From: Omphalotus guepiniiformis
Lineage: Eukaryota; Basidiomycota; Agaricomycetes; Agaricales; Omphalotaceae
Reading direction: 5' to 3'
DNA: 64,000 bases
Assembly: GCA_028554645.1 (NCBI GenBank)
Contig: JAQOOI010000069.1
Location: 186,001-250,000, forward strand
Position numbers and translations under genes: made by a program
The notes under the pieces: model-generated
The model's database searches: none
Seen by the model: the letters and a program-made list of their open reading frames with translations, nothing else
Told to the model about the DNA's origin: nothing
Part shown: positions 29,289 to 52,341 of the stretch, one piece after another
Layout of the letters: each line of letters begins with the position of its first letter
Numbering within the stretch: the first letter of the stretch is position 1

Positions 29289-29352
29289 CAGACAGACACA
29301 GACAGACAGACACAAACAGACAGACACAGACAGACAGACAGACAGACAGACA
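29289..29352. repeat. (CAGA)n microsatellite
   Basis: About 16 units of the tetranucleotide cagacaga / cagacaca type. It lies just after the gag-protease frame of element A. Confidence 0.85.
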
Positions 29353-29535
29353 GTTCAAACACAACAGATGTTCAGATATTTAGCACTCTATCAAAGCACT
29401 GCAATTCCTAATAGTCTGCCTCTACCAGCTCGAAGAACCGGGGCCTGACGTTCACAATCAAGAGGCCTTCTGCGATTTAACGCTCTAGAAGATACGTAAA
29501 GTTCTCCAATTTGGCGGGCAGTCGTAACCTGGGGC

Positions 29536-29995
29536 TGTTAGCGACTCGAGATTTTACTCAAGTGACTTTACACAAAACCTTAACTTCTCACAAAGAAGAT
29601 AAGAAATCAAGAGAGATAGATTGAGAAAAGGATAGGGCTAAGTACAAGCTTATCTCGAGGAGATTAAACTAGATCGAAGCTAAAGAAGTATTCTACAAAA
29701 GAAGTGTTCTTATATACGTAAATAATACCCTAAACCCTGGGTTGTAACCCTTGACTAATTAACGTATGTCTACCATGATTTATCCATGAGTTACGATCGC
29801 CTCAGGATATACGTGTTGTGATCTCGATCGCCTTGTGTTCTGTGTGTGTCTAAGATCATCATGCTGTCTACATGCGTAATTAATATAACCCTAGATCTAA
29901 GTAATACGATACTATCTACTGATAATAAAAGTGTCTACATGTACAAACAGTTGATAAGATAAGATGAAAAGAAAAAGAATACATTGTTTGTAACA
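29536..29995 (-). mobile_element. solo LTR of an element-C relative
   Basis: A 460-bp segment that on the minus strand begins TGTTAC and ends GCTAACA. It matches the LTR at 62109-62561 throughout, including the TATA region and the word tttagcttcgatct. It is flanked by an exact 5-bp direct repeat, ggggc (29531-29535 and 29996-30000), the expected target duplication. No internal element sequence adjoins it, so it is a solo LTR left by LTR-LTR recombination. Confidence 0.9.
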
Positions 29996-31988: not shown

Positions 31989-32206
31989 ACTGGATGAAAT
32001 TTAACATAAAATCTGTGAGAAAATGCTAAACATATGTTGAATTAATATGGAAATTTTTCATCATTTTTTTGCTACTAATACTAAAATTATGTTGAAATTA
32101 TAGTAAATTGTATCAACACAATACCTTCATTTCTCCAACATCAAACACAGTGATTTACAGTGAACAGATGTTGAACAAATATCAAAAATCATTTATCATA
32201 AAACTT
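31989..32206 (+). repeat. left arm of long inverted repeat
   Basis: Reverse complement of about 33443-33664 with roughly one mismatch per ten bases by eye. Shared words include aatttaacataaaatct, aatgctaaacata, accttcatttctccaac and caaatatcaaaaatcattta. Confidence 0.85.
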
Positions 32207-32214: not shown

Positions 32215-32740
32215 CACTCTGTACACCTATATACACCATGTATACACCCTGTATACACCTGTATACACCCATATACACCCTGTACACCTGTATACACACT
32301 GTCTGTATACAGGGTGACAGATGTACAGGGTGTATACAGGTATACAGGATGACATGTATACAGGATGTATACAGAGTGTATACAGGGTGGATACAGGGTG
32401 GATACAGGGTGGATACAGGGTGGATACAGGGTGTATACAGGGTGTATACAGGATGCATACAGGGTGTATACAGAGTGCTACAGGGTGGATACAGGGTGGA
32501 TACAGGGTGGATACAGAGTGCATACAGGGTGGATACAGAGTGCATACAGAGTGCATACAGGGTGAATACAGGGTGTATACAGGGTGTATACAGGGTGTAT
32601 ACAGGGTGTACACAGGTGTATACAGAGTGTATACAGGTATACAGGGTGACATGTATACAGGGTGTATACAGAGTGTATACAGGTATACAGGGTGACATGT
32701 ATACAGGGTGTATACAGAGTGTATATGGGTGTATACCTTG
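32215..32740. repeat. 11-bp minisatellite (gggtgtataca) with a strand switch
   Basis: From about 32310 to 32735 the unit gggtgtataca, with variants ggataca, gcataca and tgacatgtataca, repeats in the plus orientation. From about 32215 to 32300 the same unit runs in the opposite orientation (tgtatacaccc). Transcripts could fold into a hairpin. Because 11 is not a multiple of 3 and no unit contains a stop, long open frames cross the array in several frames. These are not genes. Confidence 0.9.
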
Positions 32741-33442: not shown

Positions 33443-33664
33443 ATGGAATTTATGGTAAATGATTTTTGATATTTGTTCAAGATCTGTTCACTGTAAATAA
33501 CTGTGTTTGATGTTGGAGAAATGAAGGTATTGTGTTCATACAATTTACTATAATTTGAACATAATTTTAGTATTAGTAGCAAAAAAAATGATGAAAAATT
33601 TTGGTATTGATTCAATATATGTTTAGCATTTTCTCAGATTTTATGTTAAATTGTGTCCAGTGAC
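33443..33664 (-). repeat. right arm of long inverted repeat
   Basis: Complement of 31989-32206. The two arms enclose about 1.2 kb that includes the minisatellite and the 197-bp units. Confidence 0.85.
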
Positions 33665-33742
33665 AGTTTTGTCTGTATTGCATGCACAGATGTGCTGCCA
33701 AAACTGAATTCGTTCCTGCCTGCATCCCGTGATGCAGGCTGA

Positions 33743-36063
33743 CAGTCCAAGTGAATGACATTCTATGTGAGTTCATTGATCGTTGTGTAATGGTTTATTT
33801 GGATGACATTGTCATTTATTCTCGCTCCTGGAATGATCATCTTCATGATGTGTTGGCGGTGATGGAAAAACTGGAAATGAATGATTTAGTGCTACACGAG
33901 GACAAATGTCAATGGGCGACAAACAAAATCCTTTATCTGGGGCACATTGTTACTGGAACAGGTATACATCCAAACCCCGAGAAGATTTCGACTATATTGT
34001 CTTGGCCTACTCCGGCAGATGTAACTGCGGTCCGAGGATTCTTGAACATTGCTGGTTACTACCGTCGTTTTGTTCAGAACTTCACGCGTACTGCTGGACC
34101 CATGTATGATCTCTTGCATGGTTCACCAAAAAAGCGTCAAGCCATCATCTGGACTGCTGAATGTGAAAAAGCCTTTCGTACATTGAAACGGAAACTTACA
34201 TCTTCTCCAGTTCTTGCTCATCCTACACCTTGGTGTTTGTTCGTTATCGATACCGATGCTTCTGATGAATGCATAGGAGGTGTCCTTCAACAAAGCCAGG
34301 AGGCTTGGAAGTTTCTGGAGGAGGAGAAGGATCATTGTAAGGATTTAGAACGATTCAAGTTCAAACAAAAAGACTTACGGACAATAGCTTTCGAATCTCG
34401 AAGGTTGACCGCTACTGAACGGCGATACTCAGCTCAAGAACGCGAAATGCTGGCAGTTGTCTACATGCTTCAGAAGTTTCGAGGATATATTGAAGGTTCT
34501 CCCATTGTGGTACGCAGTAATCATGAATCCTTGAAATATTTCCTAACACAAAAACATCTTGGTCGACGCTTGACTCGATTTGCTGATGACATTGCACATT
34601 TCGATGTGCAGATTCAGTATCGCCCAGGTCATGCTCAGGTTGTTGCAGATTCAGTATCGCCCAGGTCATGCTCAGGTTGTTGCAGATGCCTTGTCACGCC
34701 GCAAGGATCTTCCCAAAGTCATCGAGGAGGAAACATATCAACCATTGTTCGCATTTCCTATGGAAGAAACTACAGCGGATAGGGAACGACAGTTCGAAAT
34801 GACTTTCAACATCCTTGTGAGTTACGAGAAACGACTTTATAATGGTGCTGACCCAGCTCTCATTGGAACTGGAAAATATTCCCTTTCCCGTAATCTTCTG
34901 TTCAAGGATATTAGTGAAACAGACGAGCCACAAATGGTGGTGGTACCTACATCACTTGACTCAGCTGTTAACACCATTCGAACTCTCCATACCGATCTTG
35001 GACATCTAGGTATTCAAGCGGTATTGGATGCCCTTCGTCCTCGAGTTTGGTTTCCTTATATGACGGAGCTTGTAGAACGAGTCCTTGGTATCTGTGACAA
35101 TTGTCAATTCACAAAGCGAGAAGGAAAAGTTGTCCAACCTCTCCATCCACTTCCTGGAGTTGACGTTGCAGACCTCTGGTCGTTCGATTTTATAGGACCA
35201 TTACCTGAAACAAAAAATGGTAATCGGTATCTATTAACTGCTATGGACCTCGGGACACTATACCTATGCAGTACCACTTGTACGTCGTTCAGCCGAAGCC
35301 GTCATTTCCCTGCTTCGTACCATCATCTCCACCTATGGAAAACCGAAGTCAGTTCTAACCAATAATGGAGAAGAGTTTATGTCCTACCAATTCCAAAACT
35401 ACCTCCAACGTCTTGGAATCACTCACTTACACACTACTCCCTACCATCCTCAGACCAACGGACGACTCGAGAAGTTCAATGACACCTGTGTTCAAATCTT
35501 AGCCCGATTCACAGCTCCAGATAGGCAGAATGAGTGGGATGAATATGTACCTGATGCATTACTTGCTCATCAAGCGCATACGAACTGAAGCTTGGGACAT
35601 TCACCTATGTTCATGGTGAATGGACGAGAGCCAACACTTCCTCATGATTCTGTCTATAACATTATCAGAATCCCTCCTACCGATAAAGAAATTGAAGACT
35701 TACAAAACAAACGCCTCGCATATGTGCAGGACTTGGAGAAATTCCGAACCGAAGCAAATGAAAAAGGCTAGCGCTATTGGAAAAAGCTGCTGCAGAAAGA
35801 GAGAACTCTTATCACGAAAGAGGGCTTGGAGTAGGAGACCTGGTGAAAAGGATAAACGAACGTCAGTCGAAACACCACCCCCGATGGGATGGTCCTTTCA
35901 TAATTTGAGATGTAACTGACAAAAACACTTACCAGTTGATGGCCCGAAATGGATACATTCTGAAACACCTTTACAACGGGGAACGACTTCGAAGATATTA
36001 CTCTACCTCTCAGCCAGAATCAAAGCTCTGGTATGCTTCTGCCAACCTACAGCGAAAGGACGC
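33743..36063 (+). pseudogene. element A pol, rest of RT, RNase H and integrase, frameshifted
   Basis: RT resumes with NDILCEFIDRCVMVYLDDIV (YLDD catalytic pair) and the thumb motif RGFLNIAGYYRRFV. RNase H has VIDTDASDECIGGVLQ and RRYSAQEREMLAVVY. A 37-bp tandem duplication (34611-34684) shifts the frame at VQIQYRPGHAQVVAD. Integrase follows with an HHCC finger (HTDLGHLGI...CDNCQ), WSFDFIGPLP, VLTNNGEEF in place of the usual D-x-G, and the Glu in NGRLEKFND. Further frame changes and stops occur near 35260, 35588, 35770 and 35910. The 3' end is cut at 36063 by the LTR of E. Confidence 0.9.
34611..34684. repeat. 37-bp tandem duplication in element A RNase H
   Basis: The unit begins gattcagtatcgcccaggtc and is present at 34611-34647 and again at 34648-34684. 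The length is 1 more than a multiple of 3, so it shifts the pol frame. Confidence 0.95.
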
Positions 36064-37440
36064 TGATGCGCCGATTTTCGGCATCTGCATTAAAAGCCAG
36101 GTGATTAATCATTTTAGGCATTTGCAGTGAGGTATTAGAGGGTTGAAAGGTGCCCGCCTTGTCAATCAAAATGTGTTGTGATTTGAGTAATAAAGCATGT
36201 TCTATTACCTACGGTACAACATGTGTATCAAGGTTCTAGGCTAGTCAGTACAGTTGTGATGTAGAGAATTGTTCAATAGCCATCCACTGTTGAATCAGAC
36301 TCACCCAATCTCGTAACGAGAACTCTGACATCACAACGTCAATTGCATCATATAACTATTAGGGGAACATCTTCCTCCGGTCAATAAAGAATAAAAACCC
36401 GGCGGAAACTAAAAATGGATGGGACGCGAAATAGAGTCGAAATAATGGATCTAGAATAGTTTTGGGGTATTTACTCCTTAATTAATGGCCAGGAGCAAAA
36501 GTTGATCGAGGAAATTTGCTTCGATTAATTGTCCGGTGAAAATTGCTTGACAAGAAACCGGTTAGGAGGTGTAAAAACTCGATCAGTAAAATTTCTCGGA
36601 ATACTACTGAATTGAAGGAGTTCCTTTAACGAAACAATGTGATACTTTGAGGGGTATAATTTCTATCAGGTGATTAATCCTATGGAACCCGGATGCCCGA
36701 GAAATGTCAAGGAAATCCGTAAAAATGAAATAAAGGGGCTGAATATTGACTATAATAAAAATAATGGAATTAAAACGCATTTTTGAGGTTTTGCCTCATA
36801 AAATAGATCTATACAAGTAATAATGGACATACTTGACACAGATACTTACAACCTACATACACGGATATAGGTATATATATAAAACAGGACAGTTTAGCTA
36901 TAATTTCCGTTTTTATTAATTTTGGACTGGCAGTATGTATAAAAGGGCAGTAACCTGGAGAGAGAAAATCCAGGAGAGTACCATAGAGTCACAGGGTCAC
37001 TGGGGATCGTCTTTATAACGTGAATCGTGCCTGTGAAGGGAAATCCTACCAAAAACATAAAGTTGCCCTGGTCTGTTTATAGTCCGGTGTTTATTGCGAT
37101 ATTGTATAAAGATCATTGTTGGTTGAATTGAACTGGTTGTGTTATTGGAATTGGTTGTTTGATCTTGTGGTCAATTGGTTGTGATTGTGCAGTGAACACC
37201 TGTCTTGTTCAAAACCGTCTTGTGCTACTTTTTGCCTTAGTGCATTTTAAAAGCTCAGCTATAAAGTTCTTGTGATAAAGATATAAAGTTCTAATAAAGA
37301 AGCCATAAGTTTGGTCGTGCGGAACCTTCGACAACGCCCCCTCAGACTCGCACCTTTTGAGTGACTTGGTTGTTTTGGTTGTTTTTGGGTTTTTGTTCAT
37401 TAGCCCTTTAGCAGTTCATTTCCCCGATTCATTCTCATCA
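36064..37440 (+). repeat. LTR1 of family E (5' LTR of E1)
   Basis: A 1377-bp repeat beginning TGATGCGCCG and ending TTCTCATCA. A TATA box (tataaaag) lies at 36938-36945. It differs from LTR2 and LTR3 at 36495, 36749, 36775 and 36861, where those two agree with each other. It is inserted into the integrase end of element A after acgc. Confidence 0.95.
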
Positions 37441-37442
37441 TC

Positions 37443-37460
37443 TGGAGCCCACCGCGAGGG
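37443..37460 (+). other. primer-binding site of E1
   Basis: TGGAGCCCACCGCGAGGG begins 2 nt after the LTR end and is complementary to a tRNA 3' end of form ...GGTGGGCTCCA. The tRNA species was not identified. The same site occurs at 52170-52187. Confidence 0.85.
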
Positions 37461-37614
37461 TCAAAAGTACAAATTGACTTCGTGAGGGACGAATTCGTGG
37501 CTTTCTAACGGAATTTTACCGTTTGAATTACAAGGAGATTTGTGTTGTGCAATAAAGTACTGTTTTGTTCTATACAGTGCTACATAGAGCTTTTGCTTTA
37601 ATTTTGGATTGTGA

Positions 37615-38428
37615 AGTTCACTGGTCAAAATTAGTGGACCTAGCAAACCTAAACCAAAACGTCAGACAAAGAATTCCCAAAGAGCTGGTGAAGAAGTTTT
37701 AAACTTTCAATCCAGATCTTCTACAAGAGAAAGAAGTGTTACTAGTTCCGCATCTAAGGGCAAAGGGAAATCAGTACCAGAGCCTGAAAGTGTTGATCCA
37801 GTATTACCTGGTTCTTTTGTTCTGTCATCTGACAATAATCGGGAGTTCATACCCGGTGAATTTGATCGTTTACGTCCGCCTAAATCTACTGTTGGATTTG
37901 GAAAGTCTTATAGACTACCTGCTTCAGCACAAAAATCTAAAAAGAGTTTCAGAGAAGTTACTACTATGCCTGCTACTAGTACTACTGGTGCTGGTCCAAG
38001 TGGACAAAGTAGAGGAGATGATGATATACCCAGAAACAATGATAATACAAGGACAACTTTTGTGGGAGTTCATGAACTTTCCCCAGAAGCATTGAAGGAA
38101 ATCCAGAATGATAAGCTTCCTAAGAAATCAAAAATGGCACCTATCTTTGACCATGTAGATCCTGGCAGTTTGATAAGCTGGTTGGAACAAGTGGAAGAAA
38201 TATTCCTGAAAATGGGAATTAAAAATGATGCAGCAAAGATTTACTTAGCTACAGACTGGATGACTCATGATACAAAGAAAAGGGTTGAAGCTTACCCTGA
38301 AACAAAAAGTAGAAAGTGGGGAACATTCAAAGATGCTTTGAAACAAAACTTTCCAGAGTCTTCTTTAGAAGAAGGAGGTTCTCTGACCAAGTTGAGAAAG
38401 TTAAATTCAGAGTATGCATATATTCCGT
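37615..38428 (+). pseudogene. E1 gag, 5' part, interrupted by insertion of E2
   Basis: The frame equals that of the complete gag at 52342-54165 up to SEYAYIP, with two substitutions (FDHVDPG for FDYVDPG, KNDAAK for KDDAAK). It runs directly into LTR2 at 38429. The missing 3' part is found inverted at 49777-50790. Confidence 0.9.
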
Positions 38429-39805
38429 TGATGAGAATGAATCGGGGAAATGAACTGCTAAAGGGCTAATGAACAAAAACCCAAAAACAACCAAAACAAC
38501 CAAGTCACTCGAAAGGTGCGAGTCTGAGGGGGCATTGTCGAAGGTTCCGCACGACCAAACTTATGGCTTCTTTATTAGAACTTTATATCTTTATCACAAG
38601 AACTTTATAGCTGAGCTTTTAAAATGCACTAAGGCAAAAAGTAGCACAAGACGGTTTTGAACAAGACAGGTGTTCACTGCACAATCACAACCAATTGACC
38701 ACAAGATCAAACAACCAATTCCAATAACACAACCAGTTCAATTCAACCAACAATGATCTTTATACAATATCGCAATAAACACCGGACTATAAACAGACCA
38801 GGGCAACTTTATGTTTTTGGTAGGATTTCCCTTCACAGGCACGATTCACGTTATAAAGACGATCCCCAGTGACCCTGTGACTCTATGGTACTCTCCTGGA
38901 TTTTCTCTCTCCAGGTTACTGCCCTTTTATACATACTGCCAGTCCAAAATTAATAAAAACGGAAATTATAGCTAAACTGTCCTGTTTTATATATATACCT
39001 ATATCCGGGTATGTAGGTTGTAAGTATCTGTGTCAAGTATGTCCATTATTACTTGTATAGATCTATTTTATGAGGCAAAACCTCAAAAATGCGCTTTAAT
39101 TCCATTATTTTTATTATAGGCAATATTCAGCCCCTTTATTTCATTTTTACGGATTTCCTTGACATTTCTCGGGCATCCGGGTTCCATAGGATTAATCACC
39201 TGATAGAAATTATACCCCTCAAAGTATCACATTGTTTCGTTAAAGGAACTCCTTCAATTCAGTAGTATTCCGAGAAATTTTACTGATCGAGTTTTTACAC
39301 CTCCTAACCGGTTTCTTGTCAAGCAATTTTCACCGGACAATTAATCGAAGCAAATTTCCTCGATCAACTTTTGTTCCTGGCCATTAATTAAGGAGTAAAT
39401 ACCCCAAAACTATTCTAGATCCATTATTTCGACTCTATTTCGCGTCCCATCCATTTTTAGTTTCCGCCGGGTTTTTATTCTTTATTGACCGGAGGAAGAT
39501 GTTCCCCTAATAGTTATATGATGCAATTGACGTTGTGATGTCAGAGTTCTCGTTACGAGATTGGGTGAGTCTGATTCAACAGTGGATGGCTATTGAACAA
39601 TTCTCTACATCACAACTGTACTGACTAGCCTAGAACCTTGATACACATGTTGTACCGTAGGTAATAGAACATGCTTTATTACTCAAATCACAACACATTT
39701 TGATTGACAAGGCGGGCACCTTTCAACCCTCTAATACCTCACTGCAAATGCCTAAAATGATTAATCACCTGGCTTTTAATGCAGATGCCGAAAATCGGCG
39801 CATCA
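38429..39805 (-). repeat. LTR2 of family E (3' LTR of E2)
   Basis: Reverse-complement copy of the 1377-bp LTR. It matches LTR3 at all four sites that distinguish LTR1. On the minus strand it is preceded by the polypurine tract at 39806-39817, so it is a 3' LTR. Confidence 0.95.
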
Positions 39806-39817
39806 TCTCCCCCAAAC
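39806..39817 (-). other. polypurine tract of E2
   Basis: On the minus strand the sequence GTTTGGGGGAGA directly abuts the LTR start TGATG. This is the expected primer site for plus-strand DNA synthesis. Confidence 0.85.
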
Positions 39818-40371
39818 TAAAATCTTGACCGTCCCCGGTCAATTCTTCAGCCAATCTACTGACTTTTATTTTATAGTACAGCAGTTGTTAAGAGTTCAAT
39901 AAAATTTTCCTCCAACATTATTCATCCGGTCAATATTCCATTATTCAAACACCAGATCGAAAGCCGCTATGGCACAATCACGTGACTTTTTGCCGAACTG
40001 CCGGAACTGAATACAAACAGCTTTGGCCTCACGAACTCAGAAGTGTGTTTTCCTAACTCGTTCATTTTAAAGTTTTTCTGGAATATCGGCCCTCAACACG
40101 AGCTGTTTCCCATCATAGGTGAGTCATTATTACCTTATACGTTGTCATGTCTTTTATTCACATCTTTTTGCTTTTCACGCCCGTCACTTCATTATATATG
40201 GGCTCAACTTCGCTTTTTCTTTCTTCCTATGATTCCTCTCCCTCCGACTCTCAAAATTTACAGAGCGAGCCGGAACTTCGTTCTTTCTTTTCTGACTTGT
40301 ATTCTACTTCTTTTAATCGTTCTATTCTTCTTTTGTGTTGGCTTCATTCTCTCCCTTCTTCGTTTGCTCCA
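39818..40371. promoter_or_regulatory. region upstream of gene X inside element E
   Basis: Non-coding DNA between the polypurine tract and gene X that should contain the X promoter. The X frame is open further upstream with an in-frame ATG at 40147, but the added 75 residues are hydrophobic and Ser/Phe-rich, unlike the rest. Confidence 0.45.
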
Positions 40372-42278
40372 ATGGCACCCAAACTACCAACAGACGACAA
40401 ACGCGGTAGCAAAAAGACGGCCCCAACCGTCGAAGTAACAAGCTCTCGAAAACGCGTCGCTAAATCGAAGAATCCTGTCCCTTCTTTCGAGCCAGTCTCT
40501 CTTCCCCTTGTTCGACACCATATGTTACAAAAGTCGTTAACAAAAATTCAGTCCCAACTTTCCGAAATTTATATCGCCAACTTCGAATCTCCGGACTACG
40601 AGAACGATTATCCCAGTGCCCGTGTCCTGGAGGCTCTAACATACGCATACCTCGACTGGGTAAGACATTTTCTTTATTTTCTTTGTTCCTTATATTAATA
40701 TTTTTATCTCTACCTTCTAGTCTCATTTCTTCGACGACTGGGCTAACGAGACGGATCTGCCTTATTACGCCCGTTGCTTCTGGTGGTCTATTTCTCGTCT
40801 TGCTTGGTTACTTCGCGACAAGGAGTGTAAGGAGTACAAAGACTTCGAACCTCTCGTTATCCCAAAAGCGACTACAAAACGACTTCGCCAGCTGAAACTT
40901 TCGGTAAGTTCCTTATTATATATCCTTTTTCTTTACTAATTCTCTTTATAGCCTTTTCCTCTTTCTCGACAATTACCGGACGTGGATTCGTACGACTTCA
41001 AGAACGAAGCCTCTTTCCAATTCGATTCCTTGCCTGAGTTTTCCGCTCCTCTCGATACCGAAACATCTTCAGTTGCGCCTCCTGTGAAGGTTCTTACTGA
41101 AAATCCGCCGGTCGAGGATGAATACTCGCCTTCTTCCACCGACTCCGACGATTCCGAGCAGCTAGACGAGCTCGCTTCCCCTCCTAAAAAGAAGGCGAAA
41201 CGCGACCCTTCTCCTTCTACTTCCAAGATCGTCACGCGTTCTGCAACTAGGAAACCCGAGTCGGTTGCTCCTGCTCGCGGTCGTGGTAGACCCAAGAAGA
41301 TTAAACCCGAGGTCCGTATTCTTTTTACTGCTCCTATTTTCCTTTTATTTATTTCATCTTTGTCTAGGCTACGGAAGCAAGTGCCGGTGAAGACGATGAA
41401 GTTGTCGACACTGTTACCGCCAATCCGTTCGAGATTACTTACGCTACTAACGCAGTAAGTATCGTTTCTTTCATCTTTCTTCCTTTTATTAACCTTTTAA
41501 AACAGCCTACTGGAAGCCGAAAATCGCTCACACGAGATTCACGTTTCGCCTCTGCCGCTGCCACTATCCCTTTTCAATTCGTCGATCCCACAGGCTTGCG
41601 GCATAAATTCAAGGACCTCGTCTCTGTCAATCGGTCTCTCCAGGGTTACAGTCTCAACCCAATCTGCGCTGGCTGTTTAACCGGCAATTTGAGTCAACCG
41701 TGCGTCTGGCGCGGAGAGGATAATAAGTGCAGCGTCTGCGAGAAGTGGAAACGCCCATGTTCGTTCCAGTATTCCCTTGACAGCATGGCGAAGGTTCGGG
41801 ACCTAGCATACCAAGAAGGGCGTCAACACCCTGCAGGTAAGTCCTCATCCTTTTCCTTTCATTATATCTTTCTAATAACTTTCTAGTTATCAACTCGCAC
41901 GTTTCCAATCTTCTACAGCTTCATACCGAGTTCGATAGTCTGGTTCGACAGTCGAATCAAGCACGCGAGTCTGCCAAACGGCTTAGTTCGTTAATCCACA
42001 CCGAGCAGCAGCGTCTTCGCGATGCTTGCATCGATGCTCGTAGCGTCCTTCGTTCTCTCGAACCTGACGCCGACTTCCTTGCGAACAAGACTCAGATGGA
42101 GCTATTGGCTGCCGCGCTCGGTTGGAAGGTTGACGACTTCCGTCTTCGCAGCTCCGTCGACGTCAACGACCAAGGAGAACCGATCGCAGTGGATCAAGCG
42201 TACCTTGATAAGGCCAAAGAAAACGCTAATCAAAGTGCAGGCGTTGGGGAATCTGAGGAGGTAAGTCCAGAAGCTTAG
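40372..42278 (+). CDS. accessory gene X of element E: AT-hook and Cys-cluster protein, antisense to pol
   Basis: Six exons join without breaking the frame: 40372-40659, 40721-40903, 40952-41311, 41368-41454, 41506-41836 and 41887-42278. All internal borders are GT...AG. The product is about 546 residues. It starts MAPKLPTDDKRGSKK. Near residues 267-273 is an AT-hook core (GRGRPKK) after an acidic/Ser stretch. Residues about 360-391 form a Cys cluster with spacing C-X2-C-X8-C-X8-C-X2-C-X6-C. A helical, Gln/Arg-rich C-terminal part follows. DNA binding is inferred from these two features. No known family was recognised. It lies between pol and the 3' LTR on the opposite strand to the retroelement. 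The 5' part of the right copy is lost to element C. A downstream splice at 42260 could replace the last five residues. Confidence 0.75.
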
Positions 42279-42972
42279 GCACTGGACTTTCTTCCTTCAT
42301 TCATTATTTCGTGCCCCAGCGTCTTCTTTTGAATTACTTTCTTTACGCTTATCTCGACGGTCTCGTTTCTTTGTAGGTCGTGCTGCGTCGCATCGAACAT
42401 TTATTTTACACCTTGTCATTACCTTATCGCTGCCTGTACCTAAGTTTAAGCTCTACCCATTGCTTGTAGACACTTAGTGTACAAAATTTATCATTTTTAT
42501 TGTGTGCCTCTTCTTAATTATGAAGGATTTTACACCTTAAGACTCTAAGAAATCGAAATCACAGCTGACTTTCTAAAGTCCGGCTGAAATTCAAAATCAA
42601 AGGATTGTTACTCAGCGCTTAAATTCCATTTTAAGAAATGCCCACAACTTCGTTATTACATTCTTTTAGCTTTATTATTCTTTTTATTCTTTATGTTTCT
42701 TTTAATTTGAAGGATGAATATACACCGGATAATAAATATATTGATAAGTTTTCCGGAACTTGTCACCCTCTCCCCCAAACCAAAAATTTCAGCGCCCCCG
42801 CTGAACATTATACCCCTAAGAGAATTTGAAGACGATTTTTTCGACCTCAAAAATTTTCCGCCAGGTACAATACATTTTTCAGCTATAAAAGAACAAATGT
42901 AAGGATCGTAAATTGCATCAAACCAACATTCATTCGTTCTATAACTCGTTATCACAAGCTCTTACTTTCTCA
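42279..42972. promoter_or_regulatory. spacer between accessory genes X and Y
   Basis: AT-rich non-coding DNA that should contain the X 3' end and the Y promoter. At 42769-42780 it carries the 12-mer tctcccccaaac, identical to the polypurine tract at 39806-39817 and in the same orientation. The segment is preserved in the right copy (about 61273-61965). Confidence 0.5.
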
Positions 42973-44290
42973 ATGGCCCCTACTCCCTTTTTCATCAAAG
43001 AAGACTGGCTTGCTTTGCTGGAACTTCGTCGCGGCACCTTTGACCGTGCTCGTGCTCGTAACGTTCCCGATGGAGAGATGTTCCAATTCGCTAAGACGCT
43101 TTGTGACTTCTTGGTACGTTATTTCATTTTTAATAACCGTCCGGCGTTTAATAATAATTCGAGTTTAAGGTTAAACCCCTCGATATGGCTACTACAGCTG
43201 CCGACGACGAACTCTTCAAGAAGTTTGAAGACAACGTCACTGCCCTGCAGGCGGTTATGGCGGCTCGTCCTCAAATGTCGCCTCTTCGTTCTGTAGCCGG
43301 ACTTCAGAAACACCTTGACCGTATGGTTCAAGAACGCCTGAAGAATGCCGCTGCTGTTGCTGAAGCAGTTGCTAAGGCTAAGGAAGAAGGTAACAATCGG
43401 AAACGCAAGGTACGATTATCTACCGGACTTATATTCATTATCTAACTTTATTCCAGGGGAAGGAAACTCCCAAGTCAAAGGCTGTTTGTGACGACGACGA
43501 CAATGTTGAAGTCATTATTACCCCTCCTCTCGACAAAACTGTCGCTGAAGCACTTGTAAGTAATTTCCACCCGGTAATTAATACTTTGTACTAACATTTT
43601 GGACACATTGTTCTTACAGATGACTGACGGTACCAAGGACTCTAGCAGTGCTAAAGAAGCTAGTGCCATCAAGAATCTTACTGTAAGTCACTCATTATTT
43701 TCAACCGGACCTATATTAAATCGTTACTAGTTCCGTAAAGCAGAACTTATCGCGAATCAACACGCCGTTGTAAGCATGCCATACTCAGCAGTTCCTGGAT
43801 TGGATCAATCCTCTGGCGCGTACAGGAAGGCTAACCACTACATTTCGAAGGGCTTTGCGACATCCGGCCAAAAACGACTTAAGTTGGAAACAGCTGTTTC
43901 AAACCTTAGTGAAGAAACTGACTGTAAGTACACACTTAATAGTATTCAACATACATTCTGACATTATTCTTTATAGTTGAGAAGGCCCTACGTGATATGG
44001 CTCACACCAGTGTTCTTAAGACACTCGCGTTCGTTCCATACTACGATTACGACCAGCTCACGCTCGAATCTCTTAAGGCTATACACAATTGCCTTCGTAC
44101 GGAGTGTTCTACCCTCGCACACATCGTTCAAACCAACGGTGCTCGTTATCGTGACATGCAGAAGCTAGCAGACAATCTTTCCTTAGTTATTAAGAAGAAG
44201 TCCATTAAAGGTAGTTCCGATGTGGATGGAGATGACTCCATGGACTCAGTAGACTCTACCTCTACCACCGACATGACCACTGACGAGTAG
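42973..44290 (+). CDS. accessory gene Y of element E, antisense to pol
   Basis: Six exons join in frame: 42973-43113, 43170-43409, 43457-43555, 43620-43682, 43731-43923 and 43977-44290, with GT-AG borders throughout. The product is about 349 residues, beginning MAPTPFFIKEDWLALLELRR and ending in an acidic Ser/Thr/Asp tail (DSVDSTSTTDMTTDE). The middle is helix-prone, with many Ala, Lys and Glu (LKNAAAVAEAVAKAKEEG followed by NNRKRK, a possible nuclear signal). No known domain was recognised. It runs in tandem with gene X, and its stop lies only 157 bp from the end of pol, which converges on it. Preservation of all exons in two copies argues that it is a real element gene. Confidence 0.72.
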
Positions 44291-44447
44291 TTCCCCTGGT
44301 ACCACTTTATTTACAACGTTCTTTTTAAATGTCCGGCATATATTATATATACCTAAACACTGTCCTTACTATACATTATGTTCATACTCAGAGTCGTGTA
44401 GTGACTAGATGACTTTGTAATGAAGGATACTAGTTGCAACTTCGAGT

Positions 44448-47400
44448 TCACGTCTGTCTTTTTGACCTGGTTTTGACTCTTTCGTCCCAATCTGGTTCCT
44501 CATTGTCTTCTAAGTTGTCCCCAAGATCTGAATCACTGTCTTCTTCATCAGAATCGTCCCCTTCAAGCCTAAGATTGGGTATGGCATCAAAAATATAATC
44601 TGTATTTTTGACCAAGTCTTTATCTTCATCCTCAATCATAGCTTCCAATTGCTTACTATCCAAGTCTATTAGTTCATGAATATTGTCTGGCAATTGTATA
44701 GGTTCGTATCTGGCTGCATGTGGTAGGACTCTAAATGCTGCAACTTTTTCTTTGAGCACTGACCCATCCATTTCCGCAATAACATATGATCCACCCTTTG
44801 TCCTTCTGATTACAATCATGGGACCCTTATATCTTGGATACATCTTTCTGTCTAAACTCTTTTCAATCTGAGTATTCCTGACTTGAACCAGAGTTCCTGG
44901 TTTAAAGTCATAGTCCTTTATAGTATTTCCATATTCTTGTTCAAACTTTATTAATGCCTTTCTTTTATTTTCATCTACTCTTTCTCTCATTTCATTCACA
45001 TGAGTTCTATGCTTAGCTAGAGCTTGTGCTCTGAATCCAAGTAATTCTTCATGAGTCAGAATTCTGTCTGGAGGTTTAACCAACCAAGTTGATTCCACAA
45101 TATCCAAAGGTAGTATTGGCTCTGCCCCAGTAACTATGAAGTATGGAGAACATCCAAGACCTCTTCTAACAGTCACTCTATCTGCCCAAAAGACATGTTT
45201 CAGAAACCAGTACCATCTCTTCAAATCTCCACCAGTTGCTTTTGCCAAAGCAGTTCTGATATCAAAATGAGCTCTTTCTATCTTCCCATTGGCTTGAGAA
45301 TTGTATGGAGATATAGTAATACCTTTTATACCATATTTCTCTTCCAACCATCTCAACATTGCTCTCATAGCTGGGGCATTATCAGTGATAACCTCATCAG
45401 GGCAACCCCATCTACAGATAATGTCTTCAAAGAACCATTCACCCATTAACCTTGCTGTCTCTGATTTCAATGCTCTACCTTCTGACCAAGAAGACAATGC
45501 ACATCTACCATGAACAACATTTGAACAGCCATTACTAGGTGGTGACACTTTAAACACATCTACATGAACCTTTTGAAACAAAGATGGTGTATAAGTAAGA
45601 GTGGGTGGTATTTTCAGAAGTTCCAACTTTCTATTCTGACAAGCCTGACATGATTGGACAAACCAATTAATATCTTTCTCCATATCTGGCCACCAAAATC
45701 TCTTGTCTATGACAGCTTTAGTTGCAAACATCCCTTTATGACCCAAGTTGTCATGTGCAGCATGCATCATGTACATTCTCTTTGCCTTAGATACAACCAA
45801 CTTGTGTTGACCATCTAGTTCTTCATTCCTTCTATACATTTTACCATCTTTATCAACAAAGAACTTAACAGCTTGTCTTAGAAAAGATCTCTTTTCAGTT
45901 TTATTCAAACTTTTAATAACAGCTGAGTTCTTGTCTAGATGCCAATCCTTTATTAAAGGTAGAAGATCATCCATCTTCTTTCCTTCATCCCTTCTATGTA
46001 CCTCACTATAAGGATGAGAATTACTCCACTCTGGATCTCCTGGTGGAATTACTAAAGTTTGAGCAAAAGCACCCTTCACCATTCCATGAGCTTCTAAAAC
46101 TCTAATCCTATAACATTCTGCAATTCTTTCTTCTTCTATGCATTCTTGCAAATCATCTTCAAAATCATTTTCAGAGTTTGCCATTTCAAAAAGATAACCA
46201 CCTCTATTGTCTATTTTATCTCTGAAAGACTCAAAGTCTAGTGGTATATCATCTTCTTCATTTTGCATTCTAAACTGTAATGGTTCTCCATTATCTTCAT
46301 CTACATAGTCTTCCTCATTTACAGGTGGTCTTTCAGTTGTTATACCTCCAGGACCCCTTCTAGATAGACCATCTGGTCCATGTAAAGTTCCCTTAACATG
46401 TACCAATGTAAACTGATATTTCCTTATATCCTCTATCCACCTGTTTATAGTTGCATTAGGACCTGAACTGGGATGATCCAACATGCCCTTTATATAGCTA
46501 GCATCTGTTTCCACAGTCAAATTCCTACACCCATAAATCAAGTAATAAGAAGCTTCTAAAGCTAATTTCAGACCATACAGCTCTCTCTTTGGTTGAGAAA
46601 ACCTTGCTTCCCTTTCATTCAATGTAATTGAACCAAAGTAGTTAAAGTACTTCTTCTTAGGATCTTCTGGGTCAGTTTGGTATATATAATATCCAACTGC
46701 CATCCAAGAGGTATCTACAGCAAGTGTAATCCCATTTTCTGACATATAGTCTATAGGTCTCAAACAAGGTGCAACTCTGATAGCTTCCTTAAGAGCTACT
46801 ACAGAATCCCATTGTTCAGCCTTCATCTCAAATGGAACATTTCTGGTCAAATATTGCAAAGGTGCAGCAATTTTAGCATAGTCCTTTATAAATTGTCTAA
46901 GTTGGCCAGCAGTACCCAAGAAAGCCCTGACATCTGTTTTAGAGTCAAATCTTTGCCATGTAGTAACCACTTCTGCTATCTTATTAGAAGGTGCTTGACC
47001 CTCATATAAACAACGGTGACCAACAACCATGCCTTCTTTTACACAAATGAATGCCTTTGTACCAGAAAATGTACCACCAACATATTTCATTCTTTGTATC
47101 ACTCTATTCATATTTTGCATATGTTCCCATACAAATCTCCTTATACCATTGTTTTGAGGAATAGTTTCATATCTGCCATCTGGTAACTCATATCTTGTTG
47201 CTGGACCCCTTACAGGTACATCATCCACATAAGGTATAGTCACATGTGGAATTTCATCTCTTAGAATGAAAGTAACATCATCATGAAAGATAGGTACTGA
47301 GTTAGTCCAACCCATAGGCAGTTTTACTAGTCTATGTGGGCCAAATGGTGTTTGGAAGGTGGTTAAGTCTCTAGAATCATCATCTATCAACCTTTCATCA

Positions 47401-48419
47401 TATCCAACAAAGATGTCCAGTGTTCCTAGACATGCTCTTCCTGCAAAGTTTCTAGCAACATCTGCAGTAGCTGGTGGAATTCCTGAATGTTGTATAGTAA
47501 CTTTATTCAATGGTTCCAGACTATGCACCAATCTCAAACTTTTTCCATCTTTCTTTAAAACACAAAACCATTTTGATCTATAAGAAGAACTTGAAGGTTC
47601 ATAAACTCCAGAATCAATTTTTGCCTTTATAATTTTACACACATCATCAAATATACCAGGTGGTATTGGAATGTTTCTTTCAACCCAAGGTACATGTGGT
47701 AAGACTGGAAATCTCACAGGTGGAAAGAAATCTGTTCTAAAGTTTCCTCCTTCTGCAGGTTCCCAAGCAAAAGCTTTTTCCTGTTGTTTCATCAAATGAT
47801 GAACTAACTTCATTTCTTCTGGCCATAAAAAGCCTTCATCATGATTTTTATCTATGATATTCTTTCTTTCTTCATTGTATCTCTCACCCGGTGTGAACTC
47901 AGGTGGATTTGGAGATAATTCCGGCATTTCTGCTAACGGATCACCAAAAATATTCCTTTCTACACGGAACTCAGCCGGTAAAGTAGCTTTAACCGGTCTA
48001 ACTTTATCCTTTACAGATTTGTACTTTCCATACACATCTACAAACTCTTTATCAGTCTTCTCTTTCTCTATATTACAAGAATTTTCCTCTTGAAACATAG
48101 TATCCTTCTTTTCTTTCAACTCTTCTCTCCAACTACAGAACACTTGCTTATCCTTTCCCCTACTCTTTATAGCAGTAGAGTTCATATAAGCTTCTAGCAC
48201 TTCTGCCGCTTCTTTATCTTTTTCTACATACTCTTTAGCAGCAAATACAAAAGTTTCTGCCAATTCTTCTTTCTTAAAGGTTCCATTTTCATCAGGTAGT
48301 TTATACCCATCCACAAACAATTCACCATTTTCTTTCAGGCCAACTCTTAGAGCTACCTCTCCCTGAGGGCCAATCAGATCATAGAGGTCTGAAAATTTAC
48401 AACCCCTTCTTGTACATCT
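44448..48419 (-). CDS. family E pol (RT, RNase H, integrase), left copy
   Basis: Almost identical to the right copy (55523-59494); one visible change is DSDEEDSDSD for DSDEDDSDSD near the C-terminus. It carries YVDD in RT, an HHCC finger, the D-D-E triad and a GPY/F-type segment. No ATG opens the frame, since entry is by -1 frameshift at 48392-48398. Because of the inversion this body is probably a chimera of E1 and E2. It lacks a linked gag N-terminus. Confidence 0.93.
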   Translation of the reverse strand, partial: RCTRRGCKFSDLYDLIGPQGEVALRVGLKENGELFVDGYKLPDENGTFKKEELAETFVFAAKEYVEKDKEAAEVLEAYMNSTAIKSRGKDKQVFCSWREELKEKKDTMFQEENSCNIEKEKTDKEFVDVYGKYKSVKDKVRPVKATLPAEFRVERNIFGDPLAEMPELSPNPPEFTPGERYNEERKNIIDKNHDEGFLWPEEMKLVHHLMKQQEKAFAWEPAEGGNFRTDFFPPVRFPVLPHVPWVERNIPIPPGIFDDVCKIIKAKIDSGVYEPSSSSYRSKWFCVLKKDGKSLRLVHSLEPLNKVTIQHSGIPPATADVARNFAGRACLGTLDIFVGYDERLIDDDSRDLTTFQTPFGPHRLVKLPMGWTNSVPIFHDDVTFILRDEIPHVTIPYVDDVPVRGPATRYELPDGRYETIPQNNGIRRFVWEHMQNMNRVIQRMKYVGGTFSGTKAFICVKEGMVVGHRCLYEGQAPSNKIAEVVTTWQRFDSKTDVRAFLGTAGQLRQFIKDYAKIAAPLQYLTRNVPFEMKAEQWDSVVALKEAIRVAPCLRPIDYMSENGITLAVDTSWMAVGYYIYQTDPEDPKKKYFNYFGSITLNEREARFSQPKRELYGLKLALEASYYLIYGCRNLTVETDASYIKGMLDHPSSGPNATINRWIEDIRKYQFTLVHVKGTLHGPDGLSRRGPGGITTERPPVNEEDYVDEDNGEPLQFRMQNEEDDIPLDFESFRDKIDNRGGYLFEMANSENDFEDDLQECIEEERIAECYRIRVLEAHGMVKGAFAQTLVIPPGDPEWSNSHPYSEVHRRDEGKKMDDLLPLIKDWHLDKNSAVIKSLNKTEKRSFLRQAVKFFVDKDGKMYRRNEELDGQHKLVVSKAKRMYMMHAAHDNLGHKGMFATKAVIDKRFWWPDMEKDINWFVQSCQACQNRKLELLKIPPTLTYTPSLFQKVHVDVFKVSPPSNGCSNVVHGRCALSSWSEGRALKSETARLMGEWFFEDIICRWGCPDEVITDNAPAMRAMLRWLEEKYGIKGITISPYNSQANGKIERAHFDIRTALAKATGGDLKRWYWFLKHVFWADRVTVRRGLGCSPYFIVTGAEPILPLDIVESTWLVKPPDRILTHEELLGFRAQALAKHRTHVNEMRERVDENKRKALIKFEQEYGNTIKDYDFKPGTLVQVRNTQIEKSLDRKMYPRYKGPMIVIRRTKGGSYVIAEMDGSVLKEKVAAFRVLPHAARYEPIQLPDNIHELIDLDSKQLEAMIEDEDKDLVKNTDYIFDAIPNLRLEGDDSDEEDSDSDLGDNLEDNEEPDWDERVKTRSKRQT

Positions 48420-49768
48420 TTAGGTACCACAGGTGGAGGTCTACAAATCTCTTTAAGAGTAGATCCTTCTTTCTTCTGTTCAATTCTAACACCTCTTCCT
48501 CTCAGATAGGTTCCAATAGTACACTTGTAGCCAGAATTTAGATCAGTTATGGTTATCTCTTGACCTCCATCCTCAAAGTTCTTTATTATACTTTGGGTGT
48601 TTACATCAAAAGGTCTACCAAGTAAAACTTGATATGGAGCCTCTTCCACAATATGAACTTGCAAGTAGACTGTTAAGTCCCCAAATACAAAAGGTACATT
48701 TCTAGCCATACCCTTAGTAGGCTTTAAACTCCCATTTGCACTTTGCATGTGAATCACTACATCAGGATCCCATGACATTCCAAGTCCCATTGCTACCATT
48801 TGATCCATTGATATGATCTGAGAACCACTATCTAGAACAGCTTCCACAGTTTCATCAGAGTTATTGATTTTTGGGAATACTACTCTAAGTCCTTCTGATT
48901 CTCTAGCCACCAGTATAACTTTATCTTTCTTGTTAGGACCTAGATCTCTAAGGAATTGCTCAACTACATCTTGGTGAACAATAGTACCAGCTTTCAAATC
49001 ACCAGTATCTTTTGTCAATGTAATGAAAGTCTCCTTTAAAGACCAAATATCCTCAACATTTACTTTCTTTATTGGTTCCACCTCAGAGTCCATTTGAATA
49101 GGATTCAAATCATTCTGATTAGGTTCTATCTGCAAGAAAGCCTTTTCTGCTCTCTCAACAACCCTTCTATTTCTAGCTTTTCTCAGTATAACAGCTCTAA
49201 TGCCTGGAGATACAGCCATAAGGTCTCCAACTGGAACAGTAATATCCATATTGAAAATCTTTTCTGCCATTTCCTCTTCTAAACCTGGTTTAGATAAAGT
49301 AGAAGCATGTCTAAAATCTCCAATCCTTCTAGCTGTTTCTTTATAGACTATAGCATTCTCTTTATTACTTTCTTTCTGAACATTTCTAGCTTTTTCCACC
49401 ACTTCATTTCTAACTTTGTTCAAAGCTTGGTTACTAGGAATAGGATCTCTTTGTAATGGTTCCACTCTATCAAATGGCCTTTCTTTAGCAGGTTCAACAT
49501 TAATCTCTTTTTGACCTGGTTGAATTACCATATCCTTTATAGAAGGATCCATTATATCCTCTTGATCTCTTAGTAAAGCCTCTTCATTATCCTTTGTTTC
49601 TTTCTCTAACTCCTCCATTCTCAAGGGTGGAGGTACATACAACCTTTTATCAAATCCTTTAGGCCTTATAATTTCTACTTCCATTCTCTTTTTAATACCA
49701 ACTCTTTGTTTATCCTCAGGGACCTTCTTTGCAGTACTGTACATATTTCTAGTACTAGATCCCATCAT
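48374..49768 (-). CDS. family E protease frame, left copy
   Basis: Same 464-residue frame as the right copy at 54174-55568, with retropepsin motif VLDSGSQ and VLLGRPF. The upstream slippery heptamer GGGAAAC reads on the minus strand at 49786-49780, and the downstream AAATTTT at 48398-48392. Confidence 0.92.
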   Translation of the reverse strand: MMGSSTRNMYSTAKKVPEDKQRVGIKKRMEVEIIRPKGFDKRLYVPPPLRMEELEKETKDNEEALLRDQEDIMDPSIKDMVIQPGQKEINVEPAKERPFDRVEPLQRDPIPSNQALNKVRNEVVEKARNVQKESNKENAIVYKETARRIGDFRHASTLSKPGLEEEMAEKIFNMDITVPVGDLMAVSPGIRAVILRKARNRRVVERAEKAFLQIEPNQNDLNPIQMDSEVEPIKKVNVEDIWSLKETFITLTKDTGDLKAGTIVHQDVVEQFLRDLGPNKKDKVILVARESEGLRVVFPKINNSDETVEAVLDSGSQIISMDQMVAMGLGMSWDPDVVIHMQSANGSLKPTKGMARNVPFVFGDLTVYLQVHIVEEAPYQVLLGRPFDVNTQSIIKNFEDGGQEITITDLNSGYKCTIGTYLRGRGVRIEQKKEGSTLKEICRPPPVVPKDVQEGVVNFQTSMI

Positions 49769-49776
49769 CGGAACAC

Positions 49777-50790
49777 TTAGTTTCCCGACTGGCTCAAGTA
49801 AGAAGCCTGACCATTTGAAGTCTGGCTTTTATCCTGATTTTCAATTCTGTCCAATCTTTCTGAAATCTTCAACAAGGTGTTGGTAAAGACTGACATATCA
49901 AAACTATTATGTTGAGATTCAGAAGGTCCACTAGGCATATTATATCCCATGTCACTTTCTTCTGCAAAGATGAAGGCATTTTTGCCAACTTCCTTATCCC
50001 AACCTTTTTGTTTAGCAATAGCTTCAATTTTGTCCTTTCTAGAAGAATTCATATCACCAGATGGAGCAACTTGTCCATCTTTCATGACTATCATTCCTCT
50101 TGCATTCCTAACTAAATATCCCTTCTCAAACTGTGATTTCTGGTGAGGACAATTTGTAGCAATATGCCCTTTCTCACCACAGAAATAACAAGAATATTCT
50201 GTAGGTCCTTGTGGGTTTGCATATCTATTACCACGGTTCTGGCCCATAGCAATAGATTGCATGTGTGGTATATTCATACCATTGTTACCACCTAATGTCT
50301 CTGCAAGAACCTTTTGAACTTGAGAGATCAAGGTAGCTTGATTCTCTTCAAATCTAGATTGCACCTGTTTCAAGGCAACTTCATGCCTATCCATTGTATC
50401 AGCAATCTTTCTTTCAAATTCATTCTTCTCAACATTCTCCCTTTTAATATTAAAAGGTGTGTAACTTCTTTCTCTTTCTGTTTCAGAGGCTAGAGACATG
50501 CCAACTATTGCAAAACCATCATCCATGTTATTCTCACAGATGTGGGCAGCAGCAGCTATCACATCCTCAATAGGATACTTGTCTTCCCTTCTTCTAGGAT
50601 TATCTGGATTAGCTATATAAGTCTTTTCCAGTCTATCCTTTACTTTATCCCAGAAAGCAGGTTCTAAGGATCTGCCAAACAGAGTTACTGCCTCTAAGTT
50701 AGAGATAACAGCAGGTGGCTTTGCAGCTTTCTTATACTCATCTTCAAACAGCCTTTTGAACTTGAAGAACTTATCAAAGTTCTTCAACGG
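49777..50790 (-). pseudogene. E1 gag, 3' part, inverted
   Basis: On the minus strand the frame begins at the insertion scar CCGTTGAAG and continues KNFDKFFKFKRLFEDEYKK to the zinc knuckle (CYFCGEKGHIATNC) and the gag stop. It complements the 5' part at 37615-38428. Differences from the complete gag (FEDEYKK for FEYEYKK, GGNNGMN for GGNKGMN) fit assignment to E1. Confidence 0.9.
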
Positions 50791-52167
50791 TGATGCGCCG
50801 ATTTTCGGCATCTGCATTAAAAGCCAGGTGATTAATCATTTTAGGCATTTGCAGTGAGGTATTAGAGGGTTGAAAGGTGCCCGCCTTGTCAATCAAAATG
50901 TGTTGTGATTTGAGTAATAAAGCATGTTCTATTACCTACGGTACAACATGTGTATCAAGGTTCTAGGCTAGTCAGTACAGTTGTGATGTAGAGAATTGTT
51001 CAATAGCCATCCACTGTTGAATCAGACTCACCCAATCTCGTAACGAGAACTCTGACATCACAACGTCAATTGCATCATATAACTATTAGGGGAACATCTT
51101 CCTCCGGTCAATAAAGAATAAAAACCCGGCGGAAACTAAAAATGGATGGGACGCGAAATAGAGTCGAAATAATGGATCTAGAATAGTTTTGGGGTATTTA
51201 CTCCTTAATTAATGGCCAGGAACAAAAGTTGATCGAGGAAATTTGCTTCGATTAATTGTCCGGTGAAAATTGCTTGACAAGAAACCGGTTAGGAGGTGTA
51301 AAAACTCGATCAGTAAAATTTCTCGGAATACTACTGAATTGAAGGAGTTCCTTTAACGAAACAATGTGATACTTTGAGGGGTATAATTTCTATCAGGTGA
51401 TTAATCCTATGGAACCCGGATGCCCGAGAAATGTCAAGGAAATCCGTAAAAATGAAATAAAGGGGCTGAATATTGCCTATAATAAAAATAATGGAATTAA
51501 AGCGCATTTTTGAGGTTTTGCCTCATAAAATAGATCTATACAAGTAATAATGGACATACTTGACACAGATACTTACAACCTACATACCCGGATATAGGTA
51601 TATATATAAAACAGGACAGTTTAGCTATAATTTCCGTTTTTATTAATTTTGGACTGGCAGTATGTATAAAAGGGCAGTAACCTGGAGAGAGAAAATCCAG
51701 GAGAGTACCATAGAGTCACAGGGTCACTGGGGATCGTCTTTATAACGTGAATCGTGCCTGTGAAGGGAAATCCTACCAAAAACATAAAGTTGCCCTGGTC
51801 TGTTTATAGTCCGGTGTTTATTGCGATATTGTATAAAGATCATTGTTGGTTGAATTGAACTGGTTGTGTTATTGGAATTGGTTGTTTGATCTTGTGGTCA
51901 ATTGGTTGTGATTGTGCAGTGAACACCTGTCTTGTTCAAAACCGTCTTGTGCTACTTTTTGCCTTAGTGCATTTTAAAAGCTCAGCTATAAAGTTCTTGT
52001 GATAAAGATATAAAGTTCTAATAAAGAAGCCATAAGTTTGGTCGTGCGGAACCTTCGACAACGCCCCCTCAGACTCGCACCTTTTGAGTGACTTGGTTGT
52101 TTTGGTTGTTTTTGGGTTTTTGTTCATTAGCCCTTTAGCAGTTCATTTCCCCGATTCATTCTCATCA
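50791..52167 (+). repeat. LTR3 of family E (5' LTR of E2, inverted)
   Basis: 1377 bp, TGATG...CATCA, with a TATA box at about 51665-51672. It matches LTR2 at the four sites that distinguish LTR1. It is preceded by ACGG, the complement of the CCGT target duplication. Confidence 0.95.
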
Positions 52168-52169
52168 TC

Positions 52170-52187
52170 TGGAGCCCACCGCGAGGG
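52170..52187 (+). other. primer-binding site of E2
   Basis: Same 18-mer as at 37443-37460, placed 2 nt after the LTR. Confidence 0.85.
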
Positions 52188-52341
52188 TCAAAAGTACAAA
52201 TTGACTTCGTGAGGGACGAATTCGTGGCTTTCTAACGGAATTTTACCGTTTGAATTACAAGGAGATTTGTGTTGTGCAATAAAGTACTGTTTTGTTCTAT
52301 ACAGTGCTACATAGAGCTTTTGCTTTAATTTTGGATTGTGA

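Follow-up and report, generated by a model that had tools for sequence, protein, structure and literature searches.

A stretch of 64,000 nucleotides from the basidiomycete Omphalotus guepiniiformis (assembly GCA_028554645.1, contig JAQOOI010000069.1, positions 186,001 to 250,000 of the forward strand; the window) carries, on its minus strand, a long terminal repeat (LTR) retrotransposon, here called family E. Between its pol gene and its 3′ LTR lie two genes, X and Y, which read against the element and are predicted to be spliced. Copies and relatives were sought in the 42.5 Mb assembly of 80 contigs to which the window contig belongs.

Results

The exons of X were placed at 40372-40659, 40721-40903, 40952-41311, 41368-41454, 41506-41836 and 41887-42278, and those of Y at 42973-43113, 43170-43409, 43457-43555, 43620-43682, 43731-43923 and 43977-44290. 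An earlier note on this DNA had described X and Y as six-exon genes antisense to pol, with GT-AG ends at every intron and the frame kept at each junction; the gene models, together with the gene-finder scores and codon selection given below, bear this out. All ten introns of the window copy are GT-AG, they are 47-64 nt long and the frame is intact across all junctions. Their GC content is 0.23-0.33, against 0.50 for the exons, and eight of the ten contain a branch-site-like YTRAY sequence. On the RNA strand of the element, every one of them reads CT...AC. For Y intron 1 there is an alternative in-frame acceptor 6 nt upstream, which was favoured by the gene finder and would give a protein of 351 residues. 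The start codon of X lies 566 bp inside the LTR boundary.

Table 1 Features of the family E element in the window (PPT, polypurine tract; PBS, primer binding site; ORF, open reading frame; RT, reverse transcriptase; aa, amino acids)
Feature	Position	Strand	Basis
Gene X, six exons, 546 aa	40372..42278	+	gene model, selection, gene finder
Gene Y, six exons, 349 aa	42973..44290	+	gene model, selection, gene finder
TATA-box-like TATAAAA upstream of Y, putative promoter	42884..42890	+	sequence
Allele-swap block, X-A (window) versus X-B (L016-L020)	40290..42560	+	bin identities
PPT1 TTTGGGGGAGA (element sense) with hairpin 39827-39840, GACCG-GGGA-CGGTC; at 3′ LTR boundary, upstream of X	39806..39840	-	
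PPT2 with hairpin 42790-42803, CAGCG-GGGG-CGCTG; between X and Y	42769..42803	-	
3′ LTR of minus-strand copy, TGATG...CATCA, 1377 bp	38429..39805	-	repeats, genome matches
pol ORF, 1323 aa; RNase H-like domain of RT, then Integrase_H2C2	44448..48419	-	Pfam
gag-like ORF of minus-strand copy, cut at 50790/50791 junction	49777..50835	-	sequence, repeats
LTR at junction with sibling copy	50791..52167	+	repeats, genome matches

A spliced-gene finder was trained on X and Y of the window copy and on pol codon usage, and its settings were tightened after a first run had fused the two genes. It scored the antisense strand of the window copy at 590, compared with 280 for the sense strand and 28-60 for ten order-2 shuffles. 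In two further families, F and G, which had played no part in the training, the antisense scores were 632 and 500, the sense scores 327 and 329 and the shuffle ranges 94-198 and 52-119, respectively. That the sense strand outscores the shuffles is expected, as it carries the shadow of the real exons. X and Y are predicted to be transcribed and spliced.

Families F and G came from a genome search with pol, in which 94 of 385 candidates were scored (25 in E, 53 in F and 16 in G, the 69 non-E copies being divided by identity and frame length). Gene models were made from the pol-3′ LTR stretch of one copy each, and in both families the finder trained on E returned a pair of multi-exon genes whose order and strand agree with those in E. 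In G, X has six exons and encodes 547 residues and Y has six exons, its start being set by hand to an inner ATG; in F, X has 11 exons (the first uncertain) and Y has seven. A copy of subfamily F2, with a pol 92.7% identical to that of F, follows the same plan, although its X model was not clean: it runs out of frame from a hand-picked donor and was left out of the comparisons. Between families the proteins are only 21-26% (X) and 23-37% (Y) identical, whereas pol is 73-76% identical over 477-487 codons (74-76% for F and G against E).

According to the earlier note, relatives of the element without X and Y would point to a chance capture. Within this genome, an antisense Y adjoins 91 of the 94 scored pol copies, E, F and G taken together. 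It lies less than 2 kb from pol in 23/25 copies of E (25/25 within 15 kb) and 16/16 of G, and less than 1.5 kb away in 52/53 of F, where no Y on the same strand as pol was seen. X was found within 6 kb of pol in at least 35 of the 53 F copies, 67 of 374 candidates having been scored. The X/Y pair is not a capture confined to one lineage.

Intron positions were then compared between the families. Three of the five Y introns (phases 0, 0 and 1) have the same position and phase in E, G and F under all three aligner settings; when introns were placed at random, at most one position was common to the families in 200,000 trials. In X, each of the six alignments puts the last intron (phase 1) at a position common to E, G and F; random placement gave one common position in 12-15 of 200,000 trials. 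X intron 1 had appeared common to the three families in one alignment but not in these six, and was not counted. As the remaining introns are not common to all three families, gain, loss, sliding or alignment error must also have occurred. The sharing of introns by proteins that have diverged so strongly most likely means that they were inherited through many cycles of transposition. It is most likely, therefore, that the introns survived many rounds of reverse transcription, as antisense orientation predicts, and the introns common to families are the strongest evidence that this orientation protects them. The intron phases of X and Y are both 0,0,0,0,1 in E and G. An ancient duplication relating X to Y found no support, the profile comparison giving an hhalign probability of 0.8%.

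Intron retention was also complete within family E. Two alleles of X, X-A and X-B, occur there; the X-A set comprises 12 full-length copies (that of the window and 11 elsewhere) and the X-B set five copies of a second subfamily (L016-L020), the partial copies L013-L015 being excluded from the count. Introns are present at 170 of 170 positions in the 17 copies and no copy shows precise loss. GT-AG ends are kept at 119/120 introns of the X-A copies (the exception, in L011, is AT-AG) and, by projection, at 48/50 of the X-B copies. The argument of the earlier note, that the reversed orientation spares the introns, is thus supported both by these copies and by the positions common to families whose X and Y proteins are 21-37% identical. 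Its further claim, that the arrangement recurs in a second copy in the window (59651-62108), holds in part. That copy (59647-62111, minus strand) does contain Y and the tail of X, but Y has an internal tandem duplication of 303 bp (43753-44055 repeated). Of X, no more than the final portion of exon 6 is left before another insertion near 62111, the remainder lying outside the window; the 12 full-length copies are better support.

Codon-level selection is clear on the antisense X/Y frame. Ratios of nonsynonymous to synonymous divergence (dN/dS) between element copies, the check that had been proposed, were 0.09-0.11 for X and 0.12-0.16 for Y when the window copy was compared with L010, L011 and L012 (L017 was excluded from the pairwise comparisons and the pol rows of L012 and L018, misaligned over insertions, were dropped). 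X and Y are therefore under purifying selection. CpG transitions make up 35-38 of 74-88 minority changes in L018-L020 and 27/97 in L017, but only 15/118 in L016, compared with a share of CpG bases of about one tenth of the sequence, a comparison by counts and with no statistical test. Most copies thus look like decayed methylated repeats, which suggests that the host methylates these elements. In the X/Y region CpG transitions were also enriched in most of L001-L020, and they account for seven of the eight minority changes in L005.

The two X alleles differ in a single block (Table 1). In bins of 120 bases, X-A and X-B are 44-83% identical at the nucleotide level (edge bins up to 88%), the 5′ half being at 44-63%, while the flanks are mostly 91-99% identical to the window copy and the elements are otherwise about 95-98% identical. 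Between the alleles dS is at least about 2 or exceeds what the formula can handle, and dN is 0.09-0.11 in the C-terminal half. Measured against the window copy, L016 has a dS of 0.07 for Y and 0.08 for pol. In its X, dS reaches about 2 in the C-terminal half and could not be computed for the N-terminal half, where dN is 0.47 compared with 0.09 in the C-terminal half. The LTRs of L016 are 98% identical to that of the window copy. In the three X-B copies that were modelled, all five X introns are at the X-A positions. A block near saturation inside a nearly identical element was most likely swapped as a whole between lineages.

The conserved half of X holds a cluster of cysteines (CX2CX8CX8CX2CX6C in E) and the variable half has no such cluster. 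X also contains RGRGRPKK, which we take to be AT-hook-like, and PPKKKAKR, which resembles a basic nuclear localisation signal; AT-hooks have a basic core around GRP. The earlier note's view of X as a protein with an AT-hook and a Cys cluster stands for the cluster, as six cysteines occur in the X proteins of E, F and G. The AT-hook-like motif belongs to family E: RGRGRPKK is present in X-A and in the X-B of L016, has one altered residue in L018 and L020 and is absent from the G and F models. Zn2Cys6 (GAL4-type) clusters follow the spacing CX2CX6CX5-12CX2CX6-8C. X departs from this rule in its first loop (X8 in E and G, X10 in F) and none of four X proteins matched Zn_clus, so that the likeness to the fungal Zn2Cys6 regulators is one of kind only. 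The best Pfam candidate, DUF3246, reached an expectation value of 0.0074 with a single X and was not taken as real. Y has a conserved basic patch, RKRK, and an acidic stretch, DDDD-VEVII, which we liken to a SUMO-interaction motif. Structure prediction without an alignment gave three helices for Y exon 6 at a predicted local distance difference test score (pLDDT) of 68.

Two hairpin-plus-PPT units flank X, one at the 3′ LTR boundary and the other between X and Y. In both, a hairpin with a 5-bp stem stands just before the polypurine tract, and both are also found in G, F and F2. The second tract is reminiscent of the central PPT of lentiviruses. All 30 pair cells were paired across six units, and none of 500 shuffles matched the pairing or covariation score; slid controls were 10-37% paired. 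Compensatory changes occur at two of the five pairs, a count reached by 376/500 shuffles (the number of pair types by 58/500). The test covers six sequences with three of five pairs invariant, and it does not distinguish an RNA hairpin from a palindrome in the DNA. In F2, one pair of the second unit is a wobble or a mismatch. A scan of the X-A copies for perfect palindromes found the first unit in 10/12 and the second in 11/12; where one was found, the palindrome was identical in X-A and X-B except for loop changes.

The element itself runs, on the minus strand, LTR, PBS, gag, pol, antisense Y and X, polypurine tract and 3′ LTR. Its full length is about 14.7 kb, as judged from LTR pairs elsewhere in the genome whose starts are about 13.3 kb apart; of the 41 LTR matches listed, 40 are nearly full length. 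The PBS, TGGAGCCCACC, begins two bases past the LTR end, just after CATCA, and the gag-like ORF contains CYFCGEKGHIATNC, which we take to be a CCHC-type knuckle. In pol, Pfam identified RT_RNaseH at residues 563-667 (expectation value 3.9e-9) followed by Integrase_H2C2 at 876-930 (3e-17); the same search gave no match to RVT_1 and a weak one to the integrase core (rve_3, 0.2). With predicted RT/RNase H preceding integrase, and with LTRs, PBS and PPT present, the element is classed as Ty3-type.

Some neighbouring features were noted. At 36064-53158 the minus-strand copy appears to be nested in gag of a plus-strand element, a sibling from its own family, with a 4-bp CCGT repeat at the junctions. 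The segment 50791-53151 (LTR and start of gag) has the reverse of the orientation that a simple insertion would leave; recombination between inverted copies or misassembly could account for this. Positions 29084-31047 match the 3′ LTR side of L051, an element of family G, at about 98% identity, and the window therefore probably holds a G element or what is left of one. Tandem units at 11-bp spacing occupy 32304-32736, between inverted arms of 139 bp (32064-32202 and 33449-33587), and fragmented frames at 33733-35919 resemble a different Ty3-like pol.

Discussion

The explanation that we favour, at a probability of roughly 0.6, is that X and Y are antisense accessory genes of the element, with promoters of their own, which are spliced to give nuclear proteins regulating the element or its host, and that their introns are kept by the reversal. 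Each gene would be transcribed from its own promoter (for Y, the TATAAAA at 42884) and its mRNA spliced. In the genomic RNA the introns are reversed, as CT...AC, and would not be spliced before reverse transcription, which is the likely reason for their persistence. Both proteins have basic patches and would enter the nucleus. X may be a DNA-binding regulator acting through its Cys cluster, the AT-hook-like motif being found in family E only. Its C-terminal half, with the cluster and a coiled-coil-like stretch, would act on element DNA, possibly at the palindrome or hairpin beside each PPT, and its N-terminal half, which changes fast, would contact a partner that does the same, for example a host silencing factor. 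Y may be a nuclear partner of X, through its conserved C-terminal part and the acidic VEVI stretch. A regulatory or anti-silencing role would be consistent with an X that is constrained in its C-terminal half, changes rapidly in its N-terminal half and is exchanged between elements, and with the CpG decay.

Several results weigh against this. Transcription and splicing of X and Y are predicted from sequence. X lies within 6.5 kb of pol in only 18/25 copies of E, and a single X intron position is common to all three families, whichever aligner is used. Exon-projected frames are open in 7/12 (X) and 11/12 (Y) of the X-A copies and in 3/5 for each gene of the X-B copies, the others being broken. 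In five pairs among L016, L018, L019 and L020, dN/dS was 0.25-0.77 for X and 0.19-1.16 for Y, raised values that are expected of decaying copies and make the evidence for selection weaker there. Neither protein had a significant match in the Pfam or solved-structure libraries. The predicted structure of X exon 5 (no alignment) has a pLDDT of 48 and is of no use, so the zinc cluster is an argument from spacing only. A public protein search with X and Y gave nothing at an expectation value of 0.001 or below, and no X or Y of another species was found. Since X and Y of F and G share no more than about 21-29% identity with their E counterparts, however, relatives elsewhere would be missed and this null result is not evidence of absence. 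With pol as the query, that database yielded 1282 relatives among 7982 scored candidates, one of them named Lentinula edodes; neither pol nor a pol alignment found a relative in viral contigs or prokaryote genomes. One close pol relative, P0013 (66% identical), is filed under a metagenome-assembled genome of a Thermoplasmataceae archaeon and is probably eukaryotic contamination.

Possibly, though we hold this only tentatively, X is a swappable specificity cassette, diverged versions of which are traded between nearly identical elements, and acts as a hypervariable anti-silencing or self-recognition factor against host methylation. PPT2 and the hairpin between X and Y could then aid template switching during plus-strand synthesis and so exchange the block. 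If this were true, the element would be a natural system that inherits spliceosomal introns through reverse transcription over long evolutionary time.

It seems unlikely that X and Y serve self-limitation or self-recognition, with X repressing siblings that carry the same X allele, as a form of copy-number control that would favour swaps to a new X. Two alleles at near-saturated dS in otherwise closely similar elements, and a palindrome beside both PPTs, would suit such self-limitation, but the palindrome is the same in X-A and X-B save for its loop and no allele-specific target site was seen.

We consider it quite improbable that the antisense transcription itself is the function, with the RNA pairing with genomic RNA, or double-stranded RNA limiting the element, and the proteins secondary. 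Antisense RNA effects have been considered for plant elements and for retroviruses, and the genomic RNA would be overlapped towards its 3′ end by two antisense units. The codon-level constraint on X and Y and their recognisable frames across families argue instead for protein function, to which an RNA effect could be additional.

X and Y are very unlikely to be ordinary host genes or chance passengers of one element lineage, with no function for the element. Transduction of genes by LTR elements is known, as summarised in one review of the subject (PMC7264820), and X and Y have the appearance of normal genes with short introns. The genome searches with X and Y of E, Y of G, and X and Y of F, in which the best candidates only were scored, leave room for a distant host homologue. 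The recurrence of the pair in E, F and G with some common intron positions, the antisense Y beside nearly every scored pol and the purifying selection between copies largely refute this explanation. That the exon-intron models, which rest on sequence alone, are artefacts made of AT-rich spacers between chance open frames is refuted by the comparative data, since the antisense strand scored higher than the sense strand and far higher than the shuffles, codons are under selection and families share intron positions.

The antisense accessory genes that we favour have partial precedents. In plant Ty3/gypsy elements, antisense ORFs are described between pol and the 3′ LTR (termed aORF-3R; Grande gene23, RIRE2 and Retand TRP28); the Grande product is reported to be nuclear and Retand TRP28 is predicted to bind DNA (PMC7264820, PMC11963269). 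Like X and Y, aORF-3R are antisense, placed between pol and the 3′ LTR, retained in most copies and obscure in role. They are described as ORFs, the word intron being absent from the main texts, whereas in E there are six exons to each of X and Y (11 and seven, respectively, in the F models), and some of the introns are kept across families. Conservation comparable to that of the other element genes is a mark of aORF-3R; X and Y, though kept in most copies, are far less conserved between families than pol (21-37% versus 73-76% at the protein level). No Pfam match to TRP28 (PF04195) was found among four X and three Y proteins.

Among fungi, Zhao et al. in 2011 reportedly described Boty/brtn of Botrytis and Sclerotinia, an LTR element with an additional antisense gene. 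Boty and E are both fungal LTR elements with antisense genes; Boty is from ascomycetes and is described with a CHROMO domain, and the available description mentions one such gene. brtn may contain introns.

Spliced antisense genes are known from retroviruses, namely HBZ of human T-cell leukaemia virus (HTLV) type 1 and APH of HTLV-2/3/4; HBZ and APH-2 are reported to be nuclear regulators (PMC10186651). HBZ is expressed from the 3′ LTR and has a basic leucine zipper (bZIP) domain, whereas X and Y are two multi-exon genes wholly inside the internal region and gave no Pfam match to bZIP. In beta-globin lentiviral vectors, the cassette is reversed so that introns stay in the packaged RNA (PMC7897704). 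Those vectors are engineered; in X and Y the same principle is apparently natural. The earlier note had not recognised a spliced pair of this kind. Given the antisense genes of plants and Boty, and spliced HBZ and APH, the novelty is lower than was thought, and what remains of it is the pair with many introns, for which no report in an LTR element was found among open-access titles and the beginnings of abstracts.

Genes borne by a retroelement are expected to lose their introns when the RNA is spliced and copied, and here ten per element persist. Antisense placement appears to be a stable natural way of carrying intron-bearing genes through an RNA intermediate. Such protection may be part of the reason that LTR elements frequently bear their accessory genes antisense to pol. 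The replacement of X as a block between nearly identical elements offers a testable system for the evolution of elements and host silencing in opposition to one another.

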